Shown: positions 2,195-6,065 of the stretch, piece by piece
Position numbering within the stretch: position 1 is the first letter of the stretch
How the letters are laid out: every line of letters begins with the position of its first letter
From: Alphaproteobacteria bacterium
GTDB lineage: Bacteria > Pseudomonadota > Alphaproteobacteria > Micavibrionales > Micavibrionaceae
Direction: 5' to 3'
NCBI GenBank assembly: GCA_018063145.1
Contig: JAGOQV010000012.1
Coordinates: 1-33,632, forward strand
DNA: 33,632 nucleotides
Notes under the pieces: generated by a model
Databases searched by the model: none
What the model saw: only the letters and a program-made list of their open reading frames with translations
What the model was told of the DNA's origin: nothing
Translations under genes and position numbers: made by a program

Positions 2195-4219
2195 TTAAGC
2201 GGCGTCTTTGGATTTAACCATTTGTGCCAATAGGACTTGAACAAGACCGGATGTATCTCCTGCTCCGCCGCCTGTGGCCCCTGAAACCTGAATGTCAGGA
2301 GTAATTTTAAGGCCAGCTGCCGCAATTGATTTGACCACTTCAACCATTGTTACGCCCTGAGCCGTCAAAGCATCCACTTGGTCACGGTAAGCCTTGGCCT
2401 GAGCTTCCCCTTTCGAGCGAATGACCCCCGCCTCGGCATCACCCACCTGCGTGGTTTGCGTGGCTTCGGCTTCGGCCAGCATTCTCACTCGAGCAGCATC
2501 CCCCCGCGCCCGTTCTTCTGTTTGCCGTGCTTCGTGCTGAGCAACTTTGATCCCCGCTTCGGCTGTAATAATCGCCAATTGCTGATCAGCCTCCGCTTTG
2601 GTTTTTTCAAACTCAATCCGGCGTTGTTCGGCTTCTTTCTTGGCATCAAACATTGATTTCTCTTGCTCGGCCAAGTTCTTTTGCTGGGTTGTTTGCATCA
2701 AAGCTTCCGGCAAATGGATATTGGTAATCATCACCGAAACAACCTCGACGCGGTATTTGGTAAGATCTGCCCGAACAGCATCTTCGGCTCCCTTTTGCTC
2801 CTCAGCGCGGTTTTGCTGGTAAGAAATTGCTGGAGACCGCGAGACTTGCGCCCTAAAAATCCCGTCAATTTGAGGATGAATCACATTGCTTTCCAGTTCG
2901 GCAATCGACCCCAATTTCTGCACAATATACGGAGCATTTTCGGGTAAAATGCGATACTGGCAACGCACTTCGATTTGCATGGGAAACCCATCATGCGAAA
3001 CCACTTGGAAAGGATCAAAGGCTTTGACTCCCTCTTCTCTCCGACTGCGATCCCCTCCCCAATCGACCGAACGCGTTGTCGTAGGAATAATGATTGACGT
3101 ATAGGCTAGCGGATTGATGTTATACGCCCCGGGCCCCAGAACTTCTTTCTGAATTCCACGAAATCCCTTAGGGACAACGTGACGGGTCTTTCCACCTTCT
3201 TCCCATGTTGCATCGCCATGACTTGCTTCGGCAACGTATTCGGATGGGTCTTTGCCAATGTTGGAAATCAAAACGGCAACCTCTCCTTTTGAAACCTTAA
3301 TTTGCTCACGAATTGAGACCGAGAACAAATACGGGTTAATATAATAGGTCCCGGGGGTCAGGATGTTTTCTTGTGGACCACGAGAACCTCCATTGTTCAA
3401 GAATTCTTGGCCGTCTTGGAAGTTATTGTGCCCCTCTGGTGTTTTAACCACCACGTCAGAAACATTCATCGGCAACCCGTCTCGGGCCTCAACAATACCA
3501 ATTTCATTTTCGCCAATACTGACCGCATCGTGAATTTCAACTTTGAAAATTTCAGTGTTGATATTATAGGTCCCCGGGCGGAGAAAATCGATTTGAGGTC
3601 CTTTTTGGCCACCGTTTTTCAGAAAGGCATCCGCCCGTTGAAAAAGAGTATGGCCTTCAACGCTGTGACCCAACAACCGCCCAGTTGCAAGAGGTTCACC
3701 ATCCATGGCCGTTACCACACCAACTTGTCCTTCGCGAATGACTGTCTTTTTGATTTTGGTGACTTTGAACAAATAGGGATTGATCTTGAAGGTTCCATTG
3801 GTCAGAAAACGCAATTGCTTGCCGCGAATTCCTCCGTTTTTCAAAAACTCAACAGGATTCTGGAAGTTTCCATGCGTGTTGCCCGCTGGATCATCGGCAA
3901 AGATACGACCCGCCGAAAGAGGGGCGCCGTCCGTTGCTTCAATAATTCCCAACTCATCTGCGCCAATCGTCAGAAAGACGGGTTTTGAGACAACGCTTAT
4001 AATTGGCCACAAAATAAAATGGAGTCCCGGGGCAAGGTAGTTTGCCTTCAGCCCCACTTGATTTTCCATCGCAAAAACGCGTCCACTTTCCAGAGAAGAC
4101 CCAATGTATCTCTGTTCCATAACAGCAATCTCGTTGGAGCCAACATTAACCAGAAAACGGGTTAGAAGAAACCCAACAGCGAAAGCTGCTAAAAGATAGA
4201 GCATATACTCAACAAGCAT
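2195..4219 (-). CDS. SPFH/band-7 (flotillin-like) membrane protein with five tandem repeats
   Basis: A 674-residue protein. Residues 5-25 form an N-terminal hydrophobic segment likely to anchor it in the inner membrane. Residues 29-375 contain five copies of a roughly 65-75 residue unit (pattern: x-E-[IV]-[GA]-[IV]-[IV], DGxPL..GR, FL.NGG..GPQ, L.PGTY.INP..F.V). An SPFH-like domain follows at about 350-520. Next comes a long Ala/Glu/Lys/Gln-rich coiled coil (about 510-620) with flotillin-type AEAEA stretches, and a Gly-rich tail. SPFH proteins oligomerise into rings or cages on membranes; beta-repeat plus SPFH shoulder plus coiled-coil cap is also the domain order of the eukaryotic major vault protein. 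That comparison is from architecture only. It has its own promoter region in the AT-rich spacer upstream. Function is unknown; membrane organisation or stress protection is inference. Confidence 0.85.
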   Translation of the reverse strand: MLVEYMLYLLAAFAVGFLLTRFLVNVGSNEIAVMEQRYIGSSLESGRVFAMENQVGLKANYLAPGLHFILWPIISVVSKPVFLTIGADELGIIEATDGAPLSAGRIFADDPAGNTHGNFQNPVEFLKNGGIRGKQLRFLTNGTFKINPYLFKVTKIKKTVIREGQVGVVTAMDGEPLATGRLLGHSVEGHTLFQRADAFLKNGGQKGPQIDFLRPGTYNINTEIFKVEIHDAVSIGENEIGIVEARDGLPMNVSDVVVKTPEGHNNFQDGQEFLNNGGSRGPQENILTPGTYYINPYLFSVSIREQIKVSKGEVAVLISNIGKDPSEYVAEASHGDATWEEGGKTRHVVPKGFRGIQKEVLGPGAYNINPLAYTSIIIPTTTRSVDWGGDRSRREEGVKAFDPFQVVSHDGFPMQIEVRCQYRILPENAPYIVQKLGSIAELESNVIHPQIDGIFRAQVSRSPAISYQQNRAEEQKGAEDAVRADLTKYRVEVVSVMITNIHLPEALMQTTQQKNLAEQEKSMFDAKKEAEQRRIEFEKTKAEADQQLAIITAEAGIKVAQHEARQTEERARGDAARVRMLAEAEATQTTQVGDAEAGVIRSKGEAQAKAYRDQVDALTAQGVTMVEVVKSIAAAGLKITPDIQVSGATGGGAGDTSGLVQVLLAQMVKSKDAA
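3095..4135 (-). repeat. Five tandem protein repeats within the SPFH gene
   Basis: Copies correspond to residues 29-82, 88-153, 163-227, 237-302 and 311-375 (DNA 4135-3974, 3958-3761, 3733-3539, 3511-3314, 3289-3095). Copies 2, 3 and 4 are the most alike, sharing DG.P, GH..FQ or an equivalent, FL.NGG and GPQ or GKQ, L..GT...IN and F.V. Copy 1 lacks the central insertion; copy 5 is the most diverged and runs into the SPFH domain. Similarity is at protein level; DNA identity is modest, so the duplications are old. Confidence 0.8.
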
Positions 4220-4366
4220 GGCGTTGTCCTTTCGACAAGATCGGTTTGTAAAAATATATAATATTATATAACTATATATATTTTATGTTAAATTTATATT
4301 AAAATCAAAATTTATATATAATTAACTATTTTTGGGCAGTTTATAGATCAAGAAAGAGGTGGTTTT
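4220..4366. promoter_or_regulatory. AT-rich divergent promoter region
   Basis: The 147-bp gap between the divergent SPFH and RHH-like genes is dominated by A and T, especially about 4245-4332 with runs of TATATA and AAATTTATAT. Both genes must be transcribed outward from here. A consensus promoter cannot be placed because TATA-like hexamers occur throughout. AT-rich DNA like this is typically curved and attractive to nucleoid proteins (inference). Confidence 0.5.
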
Positions 4367-4657
4367 ATGACCAAGGATATGAAAAGCGTTTGTTTGGTAA
4401 TCCGCCACGACCAGTACGAAACCCTACATAACATGAACATCAATGTCAGTGGATTCATCCGCGATGTGATAGACGACCGTCTGAGCGACCATACCATTAT
4501 TCTAAATGTTCATCCAGAGACACGGGGTCTGTACGATCAAATTGTTTCCAATTCTCCGCAAGGTGACAGAGATATTGAGCCCTATTTACGCGAAGCCCTT
4601 AAGAAAATGCTCTCTGACCGAATTGAAGCTATGAAAGCCTTGCAAGAATCGTTGTGA
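4367..4657 (+). CDS. Small ribbon-helix-helix / CcdA-antitoxin-like protein
   Basis: A 96-residue protein with a good ribosome binding site (AAGAGGTGG) ahead of the ATG. The N-terminal 35 residues fit a ribbon-helix-helix DNA-binding fold: a short beta strand (SVCLVIRHD), a first helix, an INVSGFIRDVI turn and second helix. The NVSG stretch recalls the CcdA antitoxin family. The C-terminal half is helical and charged. No toxin-like CcdB/PIN/RelE gene lies next to it; the neighbours are the divergent SPFH gene and the EF-hand operon. It could be a solitary regulator, perhaps of the AT-rich spacer it faces, or an orphan antitoxin. The fold assignment is by eye and moderately secure; function is unknown. 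Confidence 0.6.
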   Translation: MTKDMKSVCLVIRHDQYETLHNMNINVSGFIRDVIDDRLSDHTIILNVHPETRGLYDQIVSNSPQGDRDIEPYLREALKKMLSDRIEAMKALQESL

Positions 4658-4765: not shown

Positions 4766-5197
4766 ATGAAAAAAACATCTTGTGCCTTGCTGCTGACGGC
4801 TGGCTTACTCGCTTTTTCCTCTCCTGTTATGGCTGAACCAACGGCAGATGCCCCGACTCCTCCTCCGGCAGACGGAGCAGGCGGCCCTCCCCCAACTGGC
4901 GGTCCAAACAGCCCAGACAGCAAAGCTAGACATGAAAAAATGTTTATGAAAGCCGATAAAAATGCCGATGGTTTTTTGACCAAAGAAGAGATGCTCGAAT
5001 CTCACAAAGAAAAAATTGACCAGATGTTTAATGATTCGGACAGTGACAAAGATGGCAAACTTTCCAAAGATGAAGTGGATAAGGGCCGCGAGGTTATGCG
5101 GGCCAAAATGAAAGATCGTTGGAAGAACCGAAACAGCCAAAAAGAGGGGGACAAATCTCCTGAAGGCGAGGCATCAGGAAAAGTGGGAGCCCCCTAA
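4766..5197 (+). CDS. Secreted EF-hand calcium-binding protein
   Basis: A 143-residue protein. The ATG at 4766 is chosen over an upstream in-frame GTG (4724) because it begins a clear signal peptide (MKKTSCALLL..., likely cleavage after VMA at 23) and has AAAGGA upstream. A Pro/Gly-rich linker (25-50) is followed by two canonical EF-hand loops: Asp64-Glu75 with D/N/D/G at positions 1, 3, 5, 6, and Asp92-Glu103 with D/D/D/G. Both keep the position-12 Glu, so calcium binding is likely. The tail is basic then hydrophilic. It probably works in the periplasm. Its stop codon is 3 nt before the sigma-factor ATG, so the two are surely cotranscribed, which suggests a link between periplasmic Ca2+ or an envelope signal and the sigma factor (inference). 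Confidence 0.88.
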   Translation: MKKTSCALLLTAGLLAFSSPVMAEPTADAPTPPPADGAGGPPPTGGPNSPDSKARHEKMFMKADKNADGFLTKEEMLESHKEKIDQMFNDSDSDKDGKLSKDEVDKGREVMRAKMKDRWKNRNSQKEGDKSPEGEASGKVGAP

Positions 5198-5200
5198 CTC

Positions 5201-5785
5201 ATGAGCCACGGAGACCACGGGCAACTTGCTCTTTGGTTAGAACAAACGGCGAAGGGCGATGACCGCGCCTTTCGCCAGCTTGTTCATGCCTTGGGACAAC
5301 GGATTTTCGGGCTCGCCTTCCGACTGTTACAAGGAGATCGCGCTCAGGCTGAGGATATCATGCAAGACGTTCTTATTAAATTGTGGCAGAATGCCCCAAA
5401 ATGGCAGGCTGGCGGATCAGTTCAGGCATGGGTGAGCCGTACCACTTATAATGCTTGCATGGACATTCACCGCAGTCCACGCAAACGATCCGTGGAGCTG
5501 CCAGAAGATTTACCCAGCCTTGCAGATACCGCCACCGACCAATTAAACCGCAAAGAACAACAGGACATTCTGCTCAAGGGGATCAAACACCTGCCAGAAA
5601 GACAACAAGAAGCTTTGCTCTTAACTTACTTTCACGAAAACAGTCGCAAAGAAGTCGCTCGCGCTATGGACACTTCTGAAAAAGCTGTTGAACATCTGGT
5701 AGCACGAGGACTTAAAACACTAGAGGCACACTTGCCTGCCAATTTGAATGGAGACCGTCATGACCGATACGCGCAATTATCTTGA
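5201..5785 (+). CDS. ECF-type RNA polymerase sigma factor
   Basis: A 194-residue sigma-70 family protein of ECF size. Region 2 spans about 20-90, with the core-binding and -10 recognition stretch around AEDIMQDVLIKLWQ and the W..RTTYNACMD helix. Region 4 spans about 130-178 (LPERQQEALLLTYF, then a helix-turn-helix in SRKEVARAMDTSEKAVEHLV) and reads the -35 element. Region 3 is absent, as usual for ECF factors. It lies 3 nt after the EF-hand gene and overlaps the next gene by 26 nt, an arrangement typical of a sigma factor with its own regulator downstream. Target promoters are unknown; autoregulation from the region upstream of 4766 is plausible. Confidence 0.93.
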   Translation: MSHGDHGQLALWLEQTAKGDDRAFRQLVHALGQRIFGLAFRLLQGDRAQAEDIMQDVLIKLWQNAPKWQAGGSVQAWVSRTTYNACMDIHRSPRKRSVELPEDLPSLADTATDQLNRKEQQDILLKGIKHLPERQQEALLLTYFHENSRKEVARAMDTSEKAVEHLVARGLKTLEAHLPANLNGDRHDRYAQLS

Positions 5786-6065
5786 CCCTGCCTATGGGCC
5801 GGTTGTGCCCATGATTCCCAAAGCTCGTCTGGATCAAATGCTAGATTTGGCTATAAAGCAGCCTCAACACAAATCCACACCGTTTTTCCTGAAACGGCAC
5901 CCCATGATCTGGTCAGGCGGCCTTGCAACTGCTGCATGCTTGATTCTCGTTGTTGCGTTTACGCTGCTCGGTTATGAACCGGCATCAGACGATCGGGACT
6001 TTTTCGATGACCCCAGCATGGAAGTCAGCGAATTGATCCTTGCCGAGGCCATGGACGATTTCTGA
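5760..6065 (+). CDS. Small single-pass membrane protein, candidate anti-sigma factor
   Basis: A 101-residue protein overlapping the 3' end of the sigma gene. The ATG at 5760 is preferred over 5748 because GGAG sits six bases before it. About 45 N-terminal residues are followed by one hydrophobic span (about 51-70, MIWSGGLATAACLILVVAFTLLG) and an acidic tail ending EAMDDF. The position directly after an ECF sigma gene and the cytoplasm-membrane-periplasm layout suit an anti-sigma factor. However, I see no zinc-binding HxxxCxxC motif and the N-terminal domain is short, so it does not match the common anti-sigma families. The role is inference. Confidence 0.7.
   Translation: MTDTRNYLDPAYGPVVPMIPKARLDQMLDLAIKQPQHKSTPFFLKRHPMIWSGGLATAACLILVVAFTLLGYEPASDDRDFFDDPSMEVSELILAEAMDDF

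Follow-up and report, generated by a model that had tools for sequence, protein, structure and literature searches.

The gene and its predicted product

We analyzed a 33,632-nt stretch of DNA (contig JAGOQV010000012.1, positions 1–33,632, assembly GCA_018063145.1; hereafter the window) from an alphaproteobacterium of the family Micavibrionaceae, in which one gene encodes an SPFH protein with N-terminal repeats resembling those of the major vault protein (MVP), the wall protein of eukaryotic vaults. Located at 4219..2195 of the minus strand, the gene is a single open frame from ATG to TAA encoding 674 amino acids; a first-pass annotation had given these coordinates correctly but had assigned no strand. 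The plus strand of the interval 2195–4219 contains many stops, and the minus-strand frame is uninterrupted. Relative to the gene of a close relative (L001, protein 85% identical), differences occur at 13.6%, 8.0%, and 56.5% of first, second, and third codon positions, respectively. Given this codon-position pattern and the presence of full-length homologs in many genomes, the sequence comparison identifies the 674-residue frame as a real gene under purifying selection. Its product is divided as follows:

4154..4216, minus strand: predicted N-terminal transmembrane helix, residues 2–22 (AlphaFold2 model; hydropathy and flanking charges in 78 homologs)
3986..4150, minus strand: repeat R1, residues 24–78, degenerate; resembles the SPFH1 N-subdomain of prohibitin and erlin
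3752..3985, minus strand: repeat R2, residues 79–156, core repeat 1 (sequence repeats, model, and repeat hidden Markov model [HMM])
3530..3751, minus strand: repeat R3, residues 157–230, core repeat 2 (same evidence as R2)
3308..3529, minus strand: repeat R4, residues 231–304, core repeat 3 (same evidence as R2)
3080..3307, minus strand: repeat R5, residues 305–380, degenerate and fused to the SPFH domain; occupies the place of the SPFH1 N-subdomain, with prohibitin aligning from residue 306
2708..3079, minus strand: SPFH/Band_7 core, residues 381–504 (Pfam Band_7, PF01145, matches residues 356–532, E 8e-25)
2369..2707, minus strand: predicted long Ala/Glu-rich coiled coil, residues 505–617 (AlphaFold2 model; low-confidence break at about 548–577)
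2198..2368, minus strand: C-terminal tail, residues 618–674, containing the conserved motif KITPDI-V and a final short helix (657–669); poorly predicted

The full protein was modeled with AlphaFold2 from a 34-row alignment without templates, and all five repeats, including R1 and R5, are β-units in this model. By sequence, R2–R4 are clear repeats, matching one another with z-scores of 25–33 over shuffled sequences and the repeat HMM with 110–120 bits (E ~1e-35). The outer two are degenerate: R1 matches the other repeats with z 1.0–7.2 and the HMM with less than 3 bits (E 0.9), and R5 with z 1.0–9.8 and 17 bits (E 3e-5). The five β-rich repeats, SPFH-like domain, and long Ala/Glu coil described in the first-pass annotation are therefore all present, in the vault-like order that it proposed and with the added N-terminal anchor; its estimate of 65–75 residues per repeat is about right for R3–R5, with R1 being shorter (~54) and R2 slightly longer (78). 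Of the two results that it had named as refuting, repeats that are not compact β-domains and an ordinary known domain in the N-terminal part, neither was obtained. No Pfam family credibly covers the repeats at E values up to 10 in 34 homologs, and in the window protein Pfam recognizes Band_7 alone; we rejected weak matches to the SHIPPO repeat, MutE, and SutA as chance effects of composition or motif.

A Band_7 domain followed by a coiled coil, with a predicted transmembrane helix upstream in both the window protein and its homologs, places the protein in the SPFH superfamily. Stomatin SPFH domains superpose on the modeled core at 1.7–2.6 Å over 104–113 residues, and VIA-align 2 aligns prohibitin with residues 306–553 (Z 17.6, 199 residues) and the SPFH part with QmcA (Z 12.5) and HflC (Z 13.8). 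Based on the positive charges flanking the helix in the 78 homologs, which average 0.13 before it and 2.13 after it, we infer that the N-terminus faces out and that the remainder of the protein is cytoplasmic.

Comparison of the repeats with the major vault protein

Residues 23–306 were modeled separately with AlphaFold2 from 23 homologs. The best repeat-only model has a predicted local distance difference test score (pLDDT) of 90.9 and a predicted TM-score (pTM) of 0.80, and its repeats are compact β-domains. In a Foldseek search of the PDB with this model, ranks 1–17 are all MVP (E 3.9e-5 to 0.28), and every one of the 13 matches under E 0.001 is among them. The top match is 3gf5, a crystal fragment spanning MVP R1–R7 (E 3.9e-5), and the first match outside MVP is flotillin at E 0.7. 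For the whole protein, ranks 1–12 are MVP (E 1.9e-16 to 4.3e-12), and the alignment with 4v60 is co-linear, pairing model residues 23–553 with MVP residues 217–696.

VIA-align 2 places four successive repeats on MVP R3–R6 or R4–R7 with Z 7.7–11.3 over 180–201 residues at 2.9–4.1 Å, the highest value (Z 11.3) being reached over 196 residues at 3.7 Å. The next fold after MVP is prohibitin (Z 5.9), in which R1 lies on the SPFH1 subdomain at 1.0 Å over 44 residues with 23% identity. From these MVP and prohibitin superpositions it follows that the repeat unit is the N-terminal SPFH1 subdomain, present once in ordinary SPFH proteins, and that a tandem array of several such units is found among solved structures only in MVP. 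The window protein combines repeats with the predicted MVP fold and the MVP order of repeats, SPFH shoulder, and coiled-coil cap.

The link to MVP by sequence is weak, yet above background. A profile centered on the boundary between two repeats and built from 73 non-redundant units reaches 22.4 on the human MVP sequence, which was confirmed with the PDB, compared with maxima of 18.0 among 250 unrelated proteins and 18.1 among 200 MVP shuffles. The match falls in the structural register, where MVP R3 meets R4: PGTY comes first, followed by the strand that leads into I..N.. This signal appears only with a junction-centered or whole-array profile: a single core repeat profile scores 14.2 against MVP, no better than shuffles (mean 12.7, maximum 19.9), and the repeat HMM does not match human MVP. 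Likewise, phmmer and profile searches of PDB sequences recovered QmcA, prohibitin, and flotillin through the SPFH domain and the coil and did not find MVP, and the Pfam models Vault and MVP_shoulder match none of 34 homologs at E values up to 10. The Vault model also gave no match in 395 Bacteroidota genomes, where the positive control was equally silent, so this search is uninformative about bacterial MVPs.

Profiles from different parts of the array behave differently. The core-junction profile scores 22.8 against MVP R3–R5, 18.5 against human prohibitin (PHB1), and 11.9 against Escherichia coli QmcA, and the R1 and R5 profiles score 20.3 and 24.2 against PHB1 and 18.5 and 21.0 against MVP; the prohibitin and QmcA sequences used here were entered by hand. 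In sequence, then, the core repeats lean to MVP and the two outer repeats to ordinary SPFH proteins, a pattern compatible with common descent of the two arrays as well as with parallel duplication. A common ancestor with the vault wall is plausible.

Relation to known SPFH proteins

Like MVP, the window protein has tandem β-repeats of the MVP fold followed by an SPFH domain and a long coil, and the geometry of four repeats fits. In contrast to MVP, which has nine repeats (PMC13100048) and no membrane-spanning helix, it has five repeats and a predicted helix at residues 2–22, so that a membrane anchor stands at the end where vault halves join. In the vault, 39-fold half shells meet at their N-termini to give a 78-mer barrel. 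Its repeats are also longer (73–78 residues), with an inserted FQDG..FL..GG..GPQ segment, and its SPFH part is a canonical Band_7 domain without a match to the Vault or MVP_shoulder Pfam models. Because it lacks the Vault match and the nine repeats and carries an anchor, the protein is neither MVP nor an MVP ortholog but a member of the SPFH superfamily that bears vault-type repeats. If it forms a ring, it may, by analogy, work like an MVP half-shell.

With prohibitin, erlin, stomatin, QmcA, and HflC the protein shares an N-terminal membrane helix, an SPFH domain, and a coil, but these proteins have one SPFH1 unit between the helix and the SPFH core, rather than five. Flotillins (FloT/FloA, FLOT1/2) share the long Ala/Glu coil and a likely cytoplasmic location, but have no tandem repeats. 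The curated flotillin model (NCBIfam FlotScfldFlot) scores 9.3 bits against a cut-off of 700, with a match on the coil at E 0.53, and the hflC model (TIGR01932) reaches 12 bits where 134.4 are required. We rejected the CAGE complex (PMC12485934) as a similar hollow particle, its fold being unrelated.

Distribution and repeat number of the family

The family spans at least six bacterial phyla and a separate jumbo-phage lineage, with three to six repeats per protein. Homologs 70–85% identical to the window protein occur in metagenome-assembled genomes of Alphaproteobacteria and Bdellovibrionota, and those at 31–45% in Elusimicrobiota, Bacteroidales, Flavobacterium, Chitinophagaceae, and Armatimonadota. 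More distant relatives (25–30%), labeled "flotillin family" or "SPFH domain-containing" in RefSeq, are encoded on plasmids of Rhizobium, Novosphingobium, Paraburkholderia, and Streptomyces clavuligerus. Occurrence is patchy: the gene is present in 6/11 genomes of the source genus, 1/26 of the rest of the family, 1/21 of the order and, at a strict cut-off, 1/190 of the class, as well as in 24 of the 101 Flavobacterium species sampled.

The window protein has three core repeats and the Bacteroidales proteins have four; two are present in Flavobacterium, Armatimonadota, Rhizobium, and most jumbo phages, and a single one in Vibrio phages. When individual repeats are placed in a tree (only 74 columns, quick method), the last and next-to-last core repeats form two family-wide groups (support 96). 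The extra repeat of the window clade groups with the last core repeat, and those of Elusimicrobiota and Bacteroidales with the next-to-last. Because the extra repeats fall with different core-repeat groups depending on the clade, a four-repeat ancestor (R1, two core repeats, and R5) was probably lengthened independently at least twice. Changes by whole repeats would be expected if repeats set wall height.

On the S. clavuligerus plasmid (L088:1669-5671), two TIR-domain genes that overlap each other (TIR_2, with GUN4 similarity in the second as well) precede the family gene by a gap of 33 bp. This operon, the one case in which a partner gene hints at a cargo, is suggestive of TEP1, a TIR-like NADase that a 2026 preprint places inside the vault (PMC13174449); however, we do not lean on this resemblance, as all 16 of the 16 Streptomyces plasmid matches come from one species and the TIR linkage is not independent among them.

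One phage genome of 642 kb encodes a full-length version, as do 80 IMG/VR contigs, many of which measure 250–508 kb; the lineage is thus common in jumbo-phage genomes. These phage loci (L084 and L091–L170, among them L094 at 476 kb, L096 at 482 kb, and L159 at 508 kb) mostly carry four repeats, and a gene for the large subunit of terminase is present as well in all 10 of the large contigs tested. In a tree of the SPFH part (quick method), most of the sampled viral rows form lineages of their own beside, not inside, the bacterial ones. A three-repeat version is found in the Ackermannviridae Vibrio phages 207E48.1, Kuja, and SUMAE (L085:3884-5530, L086:3893-5536, and L087:3815-5455), and in 207E48.1 the gene adjoins nrdA/nrdB. 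Among predicted viral structures, the best match is BFVD A0A3G5A4K1, an 802-residue Harvfovirus protein of about MVP size named as a prohibitin-domain protein, which may be a viral vault-like protein.

Gene neighborhood

The vault-like gene stands alone, with a convergent downstream gene (3-hydroxyacyl-CoA dehydrogenase/enoyl-CoA hydratase) and a divergent upstream gene. Comparison of the neighborhoods of homologs revealed local synteny only, with no neighboring gene conserved across the clades of the family. Upstream lies one further feature, called from its consensus match in a very AT-rich flank:

4263..4291, minus strand: candidate sigma-70-type promoter TTAACA-17-TATAAT (11/12 consensus positions, ~44 nt upstream of the ATG)

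The divergent gene is a 96-residue open reading frame (4367–4657, plus strand) with a weak CcdA match (E 0.036) that falls under the cut-off; it belongs to a small cluster that close relatives retain next to the vault-like gene (five loci, counting the window) and is possibly a small regulator. It is followed at 4766–6065 (plus strand) by consecutive genes for an EF-hand protein with an apparent signal sequence, a sigma factor of the extracytoplasmic function type, and a small open reading frame that overlaps the end of the sigma-factor gene and is a possible anti-sigma factor. The vault-like gene has no adjacent NfeD gene of the kind paired with SPFH genes of the paraslipin/QmcA type; the source genome has one further Band_7 gene, on contig C109, which adjoins the only NfeD match in that genome. 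No PADLOC defense model matches the vault-like protein.

Proposed assembly and alternative explanations

We consider it likely that the protein is a membrane-anchored SPFH protein with an extended wall of the MVP type, which forms a cytoplasmic half-vault dome that encloses a patch of membrane and serves as a sequestering or quality-control chamber. The N-terminal helix would lie in the inner membrane with the body of the protein in the cytoplasm, as the charge distribution suggests, and the five β-repeats, modeled end to end, would stack as staves that pack laterally against neighboring subunits, in the manner of MVP repeats in the wall of the vault. By analogy with solved SPFH complexes, the SPFH domain would form the shoulder and the coil the cap. 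The product would be a dome with a closed top and an open bottom, that is, a half-vault held at its waist by the membrane rather than by a second half, and each extra repeat would raise the roof over taller cytoplasmic parts of the enclosed membrane proteins. Such a chamber would most likely sequester membrane proteins whose cytoplasmic parts are bulky, or control their quality, much as flotillin, stomatin, QmcA, and prohibitin do, but as a taller structure.

Several points weigh against this proposal. The structure models are of monomers, and we infer ring formation from the domed ring structure shared by the SPFH complexes solved so far (PMC12624060). Two of the five repeat-only models are good (pLDDT 90.9 and 86.9) and three are worse (73, 68, and 42); MVP structures were in the AlphaFold2 training set; and whole-chain TM-scores to MVP are low (0.2–0.37), which presumably reflects differing curvature of long chains. 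Because of the low-confidence break at residues 548–577 of the coil, cap geometry and ring size are uncertain: a regression on CC1 length (y = 0.1782x + 10.22; PMC12624060) gives 19 if the break lies at 554 and 30 if the coil extends to 617, a spread too wide for us to claim a ring size. Finally, given that no partner gene is conserved across clades, the cargo is a guess.

A serious alternative, to which we assign a little less than an even chance, is that the SPFH1 subdomain was duplicated in a bacterial SPFH protein independently of MVP, in which case the likeness to vaults is parallel evolution, and a taller dome could still result. Parallel duplication is kept in play by the match of each unit to the SPFH1 subdomain of ordinary SPFH proteins, seen in the close superposition of R1 on prohibitin and in R1 and R5 profiles that match PHB1 as well as or better than MVP; the repeats have also been duplicated more than once within the family, and MVP gives no detectable match at the Pfam level. 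However, the core-junction profile prefers MVP over both PHB1 and QmcA, and four successive repeats are positioned relative to one another as in MVP, an agreement that one shared unit would not by itself impose.

It is unlikely that the protein is a flotillin-type scaffold that clusters membrane components without a closed cage, its repeats acting as spacers or partner-binding sites. The coil is flotillin-like in sequence and RefSeq names relatives "flotillin family protein," but the solved structures of flotillin (9bq2, 9l3g) themselves show a cage, and the repeat stack matches a wall-forming chain. Quite unlikely in our view is a periplasmic dome like that of HflK/HflC, with the repeats and SPFH domain outside the cytoplasm and controlling FtsH or another membrane protease. 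HflK/C and prohibitins do act as protease-controlling domes (PMC12624060), and the SPFH part aligns with HflC; however, in the 78 homologs the positive charges come after the helix, and no protease gene is linked to the vault-like gene. Very improbable is an ordinary SPFH protein to which model bias has lent a false resemblance to vaults: AlphaFold2 knows MVP and the whole-chain TM-scores are low, but the modeling was free of templates, nothing except MVP is returned below E 0.7 in the repeat-only search, the junction signal in sequence does not depend on the model, and an ordinary SPFH protein has a single unit of this kind where the present one has five.

Implications for the origin of vaults

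The origin and function of vaults are long-standing open questions. A few bacterial MVP homologs have reportedly been noted in gliding bacteria. Our literature search, with subscription papers and most preprints outside its reach, found no account of MVP-type repeats in bacteria, although prior notice is possible. Vaults have been called absent from prokaryotes (PMC9778704), and a survey of 12 prokaryotic SPFH subfamilies (PMC2636767), in the portions reached by keyword search, mentions neither vaults nor such repeats. A 2026 cryo-electron tomography study described the domains of MVP as "unique to the vault" and noted that MVP, unlike other SPFH cages, has no membrane motif (PMC13100048). The window protein, which unites an MVP-type wall with a membrane anchor, is an intermediate missing from that picture.

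We tentatively raise a broader scenario, doubtful as it is, in which bacteria and giant phages have membrane-bound half-vaults and the eukaryotic vault descended from one: the wall repeats of MVP would have arisen by duplication of a prokaryotic SPFH1 subdomain, followed by loss of the anchor, addition of repeats, and joining of half-shells at the former anchor site. The jumbo-phage lineage raises the question of what use viruses would make of such a dome. The presence of the family in culturable bacteria (Flavobacterium) could make vault architecture accessible to bacterial genetics, and the natural variation in wall height, from three to six repeats, offers a direct test of whether repeats set the height of the cage.
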